Shown here piece by piece: positions 12,550 to 13,372 of a stretch of 40,572 nucleotides of DNA. Below the pieces are notes generated by a model. It was given only the letters and a program-made list of their open reading frames with translations. It made no database searches and had not been told where the DNA came from. The stretch covers positions 1 to 40,572 of the forward strand of contig JABFXX010000591.1 of NCBI GenBank assembly GCA_013368795.1, written 5' to 3'. The position numbers were made by a program, and so were the translations under genes. The stretch comes from Kofleriaceae bacterium (GTDB taxonomy: Bacteria > Myxococcota_A > Polyangia > Haliangiales > Haliangiaceae). How positions within the stretch are numbered: position 1 is the stretch's first letter; each line of letters starts with the position of its first letter.

Positions 12550-12696
12550 AGAAATTGCTACCCGTCGCGAACGCGCGGTGCTAGAAGACTCGCCGTGACT
12601 CGTTCCCTGCTCCGCGAGCGTTAGCCGGCCGACGCCCCCCGCGTTCGGATCGCTAGAGCTACGTGTCGAGCAATTGAGCATTGAAGGGATCAGGTC
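12550..12696. other. Leader region before release-factor-like gene
   Basis: These 147 bases contain an 8-bp inverted repeat, CGAACGCG at 12568-12575 and CGCGTTCG at 12640-12647, which could fold the leader, and AAGGG at 12684-12688 upstream of the ATG. A TTCGGATC stretch resembles a tRNA T-loop but lacks the conserved A and any acceptor pairing, so no tRNA is called. Confidence 0.4.
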
Positions 12697-13372
12697 ATGT
12701 CGAAGGAAACGGTCATCGTCGAGATCCGTGCCGCCGAGGGTGGTGCGGACGCCAAGCAGCTGGTCGAGGAACAGGTCGCGATCTACGTGCGGCTCGGAGG
12801 CCGGAGGTCGCTTTAGCGTCGCGGTCGTCGAGCGCCGTCCCGGCCTCGCGATCGTGCGCGTGACCGGCAAGGGTGCGCCGGCGCTGTTCGCCGATGAAGT
12901 CGGCGGCCATCGCTGGCAGCGCGTGCCGCCCACCGAGAAGCGCGGTCGCGTGCAATCGAGCACGATCACGGTCGCGGTCCTCGACGAGCACGCGGAGGCC
13001 GAGGTCGAGATCCGCGAGGAAGAGCTCGAGTGGAGGGCGTGTCGCGCGCAGGGCAAGGGCGGTCAGCACCTGCAGAAGACGGACTCGGCCGTGCAGGTCA
13101 CGCACCTGCCGACGGGCATCCAGATCCGCGCTCAGACCTCGCGGTCGTGGCACGCGAACAAGGCCGAGGCGCTCGCGAAGCTGCGCGAACGGCTCACCGC
13201 CGACGCGCGCGATGCAGCGACGTCCACGCGCGCGACCGAGAGGCGCGAGCAAGTGGGCAGCGGCATGCGCGGCGACAAGCGCCGAACCATCCGCGTGCAG
13301 GACGACAGCGTGGTCGATCACCTGACAGGGCGCACGTGGCGGCTGCGCGACTACCTGCGCGGTGCCTGGTGA
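12697..13372 (+). CDS. RF1-like short release factor, needs +1 frameshift
   Basis: The first frame (12697-12813) reads MSKETVIVEIRAAEGG and stops at UAG 12814-12816 after 39 codons. The +1 frame continues from AGC 12815 to TGA 13370-13372, giving about 224 residues. The joined protein aligns with RF1 domains 2-4: EIRAxxGG, GGHRWQRVPPTEKRGRV (PxT tripeptide of RF1-type stop recognition), QGKGGQHLQKTDSAVQVTHLPTGI (GGQ hydrolysis loop) and VGSGMRGDKRRT. Domain 1 (about 95 residues) and the C-terminal tail are missing, and the RF1 His in RIHTS is Gln (RVQSS). A prfB-type slippery site sits at the break. Decay into a pseudogene is the alternative. Confidence 0.75.
12803..12817 (+). promoter_or_regulatory. 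Putative programmed +1 frameshift site
   Basis: In the first reading frame the codons are CGG AGG UCG CUU UAG, followed by C. The E. coli prfB site is AGG GGG UAU CUU UGA C. Both have a Shine-Dalgarno-like hexamer, exactly one codon, the slippery CUU, an in-frame stop and then C. Here the stop is UAG instead of UGA. A second GGAGG lies at 12796-12800. Slippage from CUU to UUU would resume at AGC and join both halves of the release factor. Confidence 0.65.

Follow-up and report, generated by a model that had tools for sequence, protein, structure and literature searches.

The window analysed here, i.e. the whole stretch of 40,572 nt from Kofleriaceae bacterium (assembly GCA_013368795.1, contig JABFXX010000591.1, positions 1-40,572, forward strand), probably encodes a short class-I release factor of the RF1 type (224 aa), produced through a programmed +1 slip at a UAG codon. 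We consider it likely to be a conditional extra or rescue factor, and a member of a family gated by the sensing of termination. Support at the sequence level comes from the gene and its site, their conservation, the selection acting on them, the modelled fold of the product, and the interchange of stops among relatives. The features of the gene are the following:

12697..12816, + strand: zero-frame ORF, start of release factor domain 2 (EIRAAEGG region); ATG, 39 codons, UAG at 12814-12816; weak release factor model match
12803..12807, + strand: internal Shine-Dalgarno (SD) sequence GGAGG, 3 nt 5' of the slippery codon, by sequence reading
12811..12813, + strand: slippery codon CUU; CTT in 100 of 100 frameshift members of the family
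12814..12817, + strand: gating stop UAG, then C, by sequence; in the family UGA 74, UAG 23, UAA 3
12815..13372, + strand: +1 frame with the remaining domain 2/4, the GGQ domain 3 and the stop; open from AGC, 185 aa; RF1 model match
12926..12934, + strand: PPT, the PxT-type stop-recognition motif
13058..13066, + strand: GGQ, presumably the peptide-release motif; invariant in alignment A1

The junction reads CGG AGG TCG CTT TAG C, that is GGAGG, 3 nt, CUU, UAG and C. The gene carries a prfB-type cassette, GGAGG-TCG-CTT-TAG-C: the zero-frame CTT-stop-C is followed by homologous protein going on in the +1 frame, and the SD-like GGAGG (12803-12807) lies 3 nt 5' of the slippery codon. The site departs from the usual prfB element, an RF2 gene with the stop UGA (rarely UAA), in that the window gene is RF1-like and uses UAG. 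The window contains GGAGGNNNCTTTAGC a single time, and 100 shuffles do not contain it at all. Across the draft genome (9.8 Mb, 723 contigs), GGAGGNNNCTTTRRC is found at two places, the window gene and prfB. The reversed pattern, taken as a control, likewise occurs twice, so that the bare count carries no weight; the weight lies in the sole other place being prfB. The genome's own prfB site is GGAGGTTG-CTT-TGA-C. The original prediction had placed the ATG at 12697, the UAG after 39 codons and the +1 frame at 12815-13372, and we found no slip in these coordinates; the prfB-like CUU-UAG-C with its upstream SD, which it had described at the join, is confirmed and is shared by relatives.

The two pieces of the gene match adjoining stretches of release factor models in the correct order. 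The +1 part exhibits 168 bits against the RF1 model NF001859 and 97.7 bits against Pfam RF-1. For the 39-aa part, the match is to the stretch preceding this one in the same RF1 models (15.2 bits, E-value = 0.0087) and to Pfam PCRF (19 bits, E-value = 0.0014), weak and in both cases under the cut-off, and the joined sequence reaches 59 bits against PCRF. The joined product, of 224 aa, covers RF1 from domain 2 onward: its match to NF001859 begins at profile position 103 of 347 and scores 184.9 bits against a cut-off of 400. Its scores are 118 bits with the RF2 model and 88.5 bits with PrfH (TIGR03072, cut-off 166.65). An AlphaFold2 prediction for the joined product (alignment A3) gave pLDDT 94.1 and pTM 0.81, with ribosome-bound RF1 as the best PDB matches (TM 0.90; PrfH, TM 0.66), and in the model the join follows a helix (17-36) and precedes a strand (40-47). 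The joined product thus models as RF1 domains 2-4. It had been called an RF1-type factor with a PPT motif; the motif is there, and the likeness to RF1 holds for profile, fold, PxT loop and GGQ, but the protein is not a full RF1, lacking domain 1 and scoring below the equivalog cut-off.

Relatives were collected from cellular, viral and plasmid sequences. One contig scan of a genome collection yielded 32 loci, among them ordinary RF1 genes, and 56 related genomes were searched for the gene. Ten of 377 genomes of the phylum match at E-value ≤ 1e-60 and eight of 30 genomes of the family at E-value ≤ 1e-74, the window's own genome being included in both counts, with a partial match in genome G027. 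Among 399 genomes of one order around an Achromobacter genome, that genome alone matches at E-value ≤ 1e-60. A viral scan found 339 relatives, of which 80 were kept, a pattern scan gave 72 stretches, and three more viral scans added few relatives. Relatives are carried by phage records including LR745208, LR745206, LR756502 and LR756504 (485-642 kb) and by plasmids including those of Bosea and Variovorax. The model phrog_2, which we take to be a terminase model, matches 26 of the 50 virus records examined and also 11 of 14 control genomes. Taken as a set, many of the contigs bearing relatives are phages.

From 188 unique hits we set aside 37 full release factors, 15 hits without the N-terminal part by motif, and two shifts of another kind (L018 and the second frame of L187). 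The remaining 134 members, the window gene included (L066), have both halves by motif and form a non-independent and incomplete sample. They come from IMG/VR (96), cellular genomes (32), phage records (4) and plasmids (2), i.e. 100 from viral records; these shares mirror the search design, in which five scans went to the viral collection and one to the genome collection. Seen by eye, four of the 15 hits set aside resemble frameshift members (L117, L174, L206 as L105, L194 as L140) and seven have in-frame stops (L156, L166, L169, L175, L177, L179 and L259, the last with UGA twice); L220 is truncated, L260 lacks a stop, L004 resembles ArfB and L167 is ambiguous. Alignment A2, made of separate pieces, was misaligned and was excluded.

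Nearly all members are interrupted. A +1 shift at UGA is found in 74, at UAG in 23 and at UAA in three; 25 have one in-frame UGA, five have two, and four (L044, L163, L164, L213) have no stop. The 32 cellular members comprise 22 UGA shifts, seven UAG shifts, two in-frame UGAs and one gene without a stop. The UAG gate recurs with the same join in a gene of the same genus (L078, identical in sequence to L005 and L037), and five further unique cellular members have it. Among named strains, Pyxidicoccus fallax DSM 14698 carries a UAG gate, and Minicystis rosea DSM 24000 and Nannocystis carry a UGA gate. At the 100 shift sites the codon 5' of the stop is invariably CTT, which accounts for 12% of leucine codons across these genes. 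AGGA, GGAG or GAGG lies within 12 nt of the site in 85 of the 100, against 2183 of 18040 control windows (12.1%), and the base after the gating stop is C in 74. The check proposed with the original prediction was whether homologs repeat CUU-UAG-C, the SD and the +1 join; the slippery codon and, mostly, the SD do recur, but UAG is the stop in only 23 of 100. Single-frame homologs without the stop, which would have spoken against a programmed shift, are limited among the 134 to the four named above. The shift site lies about 10 codons later than in the window gene in L024, L026 (Achromobacter), L028 and L234. The 30 in-frame-UGA members have their stop at the RF1 tryptophan column (9), one codon later (3) or further downstream (18). 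Since the gates differ in kind and place, the gate arose or moved more than once.

Two other explanations of the choice of gate were rejected. An alternative genetic code would account for the in-frame UGAs; in seven such phage stretches TGA terminates 42 of the 144 mechanical ORFs, and the gain in ORF coverage from reading TGA as tryptophan is 0.13-0.14 near in-frame-UGA genes versus 0.11-0.12 near UGA- or UAG-shift genes, a small difference. Nor does the gate appear to be set by stop usage, UAG being 23% of ORF stops in ten UAG-gated stretches versus 22% in 20 UGA-gated ones.

We propose that a ribosome waiting at the UAG would slip from CUU to UUU, with the aid of the internal SD, and continue in the +1 frame. 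A quickly recognised stop would release a 39-aa stub; by analogy with prfB, slow termination would raise the slip rate and yield more release factor, and the factor may feed back on its own synthesis. The in-frame-UGA members would reach the same outcome by readthrough. UGA is known as the leakiest stop codon, which fits the finding that all 30 in-frame stops are UGA, nine of them at the tryptophan position. As nearly every collected member is gated by some stop, the common trait would be the sensing of failing termination rather than UAG itself. It is unclear how the two-UGA members (L012, L168, L189, L226, L254) could make sufficient product, and this counts against the proposal. A more general reading, which we find nearly balanced but hold only tentatively, is that these are short codon-indifferent release factors, largely spread by phages, that act as an alarm for termination failure and are made upon stalling at any gate stop; several separate gate solutions (+1 slips at UGA, UAG or UAA, one or two in-frame UGAs) would have been found, and the window gene would be a bacterial member with the UAG setting.

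A tree was made from the part 3' of the site. It has 132 rows, two of the 134 members being absent, and is a quick tree with 63 of 129 inner branches open; on it the 100 shift members require at least 22 changes of the gating stop, and the kind of gate switches at least 13 times. Well-supported stop swaps include L106 (UGA) adjoining L139 and L141 (UAG), L120 (UGA) adjoining L152 (UAG), and L137 and L148 (UAG) grouped with UGA members. From this distribution, the gate appears to be interchangeable, UAG being one of its settings. At the PxT position, threonine is present in 61 of the 74 members with a UGA gate and in 19 of the 26 with UAG or UAA. Six members (L139, L141, L155, L158, L171, L253) have lost the PxT loop and kept the gate, as if codon reading had been abandoned; L139 and L141 are gated by UAG. 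The pattern would fit a factor able to act at all stops, or else a sensor of the host's own factors.

The latter leads to a quite conceivable alternative, somewhat short of an even chance, in which the gate reads the cell's RF1 (UAG), RF2 (UGA) or both (UAA) and the short factor serves as a backup or rescue factor without regulating itself. Stops that interchange with little change in the loop agree with it, and deleted loops would be expected of a codon-blind rescue factor. The window's genome also has matches resembling a complete RF1 (contig C229), a complete RF2 (C448) and an ArfB-like protein (C573), so that the window gene appears to be an extra factor; each of the ten other genomes searched with A1 likewise has, in addition to the short factor, at least one further release-factor-like match. 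A natural trigger might be the trapping of release factors, as described for apidaecin in the accessible part of PMC7544508. Against this alternative, at 125 loci no shared neighbour was found in more than nine, none of them annotated. Nine ORFs scanned around the window gene comprise seven of ordinary Pfam families (transporter, enzymes etc.) and two without Pfam matches. An rtcB operon was not found for the factor in the window's genome, where RtcB lies on contigs C719 and C410 and the factor on C301. A link to PrfH and RtcB was also considered and rejected, given the PrfH score under the cut-off and these separate contigs.

To see which residues follow the stop, 686 residue tests were made on the columns of the 100 frameshift members. 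The sole strong tracker is residue 40, which is encoded by the site itself. No link with the stop survives correction for the 686 tests at the loop residues 85 (first proline of PPT, uncorrected p = 0.010), 77 (p = 0.012) and 90 (p = 0.039) or at residue 19 near the alpha5 tip (p = 0.009). Independent pairs on well-supported branches number five, below what a sign test needs. The earliest relatives had hinted at a coupling of the UAG gate to a histidine or glutamine in the decoding loop; this was rejected, glutamine being present in 13 of 23 UAG, 29 of 74 UGA and 0 of 3 UAA members. Two C-terminal residues of P0003 may be mentioned separately: glutamine at residue 153 occurs in 45 of 74 UGA-gated versus 4 of 26 UAG/UAA-gated members (p = 7e-5, about 0.05 corrected), and alanine at residue 217 in 2 of 74 versus 8 of 26 (p = 2.6e-4 in 686 tests).

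The PxT loop therefore does not clearly follow the gate stop as far as these columns tell, which weighs against our own proposal and also against the mirror image of the RF2 circuit, in which a factor reading UAG (and UAA) like RF1 would limit its own synthesis at UAG as RF2 does at UGA. The PPT motif and the RF1-like scores are in its favour, as are the UAG gates of the window gene, L078 and the five other cellular members, the UGA form of the genome's own prfB, and the weak lean of three loop columns with the stop. Against it, the same protein type is UGA-gated in 74 of 100 members, close relatives swap stops, and loop-less members, two of them with UAG, keep the gate. Together with the weak loop links, the swaps and the loop-less members argue against a codon-matched RF1 circuit as a general rule, and we regard this circuit as doubtful. 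The original prediction had explained the UAG by the RF1 type of the factor; this is not supported for the family, in which the same kind of loop goes with all three stops. For the window species, autoregulation at UAG is possible.

Both halves of the gene are maintained as protein under purifying selection, judging from codon comparisons. When the window gene is compared with L078, the 33 codons before the site have a dN/dS of 0.10 and the 185 codons after it one of 0.28. In 12 chosen pairs pooled, mismatches at the three codon positions number 29/18/123 before the site and 59/45/127 after it in the +1 frame; three C-terminal parts gave no usable dS and one N-terminal part had no differences. 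It is accordingly very improbable that two products are made, a short peptide from the N-terminal part and a C-terminal factor with a start of its own. A relative on the Variovorax plasmid is annotated as two CDS, and the +1 frame has a TTG at 12674, upstream of the join; yet that frame exhibits no release factor likeness 5' of the join, and the zero-frame N-terminal part shows conservation at the protein level and, in the predicted model, makes one domain complete. A sequencing error such as a missing base, a frameshift mutation or a decaying gene hardly comes into question, despite the draft state of the genome and a relative (L018) that looks like a case of two 1-nt losses, because the same join is found in the complete-genome records of Minicystis rosea (CP016211) and Nannocystis poenicansa (NZ_CP114040) and, always with CTT, at 100 unique loci, and selection is purifying on either side of the site.

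Our preferred reading, a short release factor gated by the sensing of termination, can be compared with known systems. The window gene shares with prfB (RF2) the CUU-stop-C, the SD 3 nt upstream and its being a class-I release factor gene; it differs in that the factor is RF1-like, lacks domain 1 and has its gate in domain 2, and in its stop, which is UAG here and variable in the family, whereas the accessible part of a 2025 survey (PMC12421855) counts zero UAG among 8,164 prfB motifs. RF1 (prfA) is closest by profile and fold and has the PxT-type loop and GGQ, but the window factor lacks domain 1 and is additional to the genome's RF1. For prfA, the accessible parts of that survey and of a 2016 review (PMC5009743) know of no programmed shift. 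PrfH (RFH), which occurs with RtcB2, is likewise a release factor without domain 1 and sporadic in its distribution, according to the portions at hand of PMC6514570 and PMC9223846; the window factor stays below the PrfH cut-off, models closer to RF1, and in its own genome has no adjoining rtcB.

In the same part of the 2016 review, an RF2 gene with an early in-frame UGA and the remainder in the same frame is not known, nor is the UAG counterpart in RF1 genes. The E. coli prfB shift is put at about 28%, and at 47% without RF3, in the accessible part of PMC5373646. The main text of PMC3711429 contains none of the terms RF1, prfA and UAG. In PMC1586002, as far as its text was available, the shift is discussed for RF2, and a reviewer's comment in that paper states its absence from the RF1 family. 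RFH is the subject of PMC6514570, in whose accessible part the word frameshift is absent; PMC7162821, which finds release factors 1 and 2 in huge phages, also lacks the word. Among the matches listed for the open-access literature, no paper deals with a stop-gated RF1-like or bacteriophage release factor, though such a paper could exist. The release factor of a giant amoeba virus differs, being presumably of the eukaryotic type, and its virus is not a bacteriophage. We rate prfB-type gating as already known, and as new the stops used and the family, which is named by no model scanned. This RF1-like family exhibits both UAG gates and in-frame-UGA gates, many of them in viral contigs. Close relatives in nature whose gating stops differ make it testable whether the gate senses the factor's own codon or general termination capacity.

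Several minor observations concern single relatives. Besides the five members with two in-frame UGAs in one reading frame, L259 from a 735-kb phage record has the same arrangement. A 20-kb piece (L302) of the 456-kb virus contig of L113 has two predicted tRNAs with a CUA anticodon, of the UAG suppressor type, and the gate of its short release factor is UGA. Genome G039 (Myxococcota) has three similar family matches (contigs C19, C380 and C355), and the one examined (L044) is ungated. In L018 (5870-6560, Nannocystis pusilla Na p29) two single nucleotides have apparently been lost relative to its kin, perhaps by assembly errors. Minicystis rosea has an additional release-factor-like match with an internal TGA (G416:C1:15128698-15129084). 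The gene also escapes annotation: it appears as two CDS on the Variovorax plasmid and as an opposite-strand hypothetical protein on the Bosea plasmid (L257 5968-6672; L258 6004-6636).
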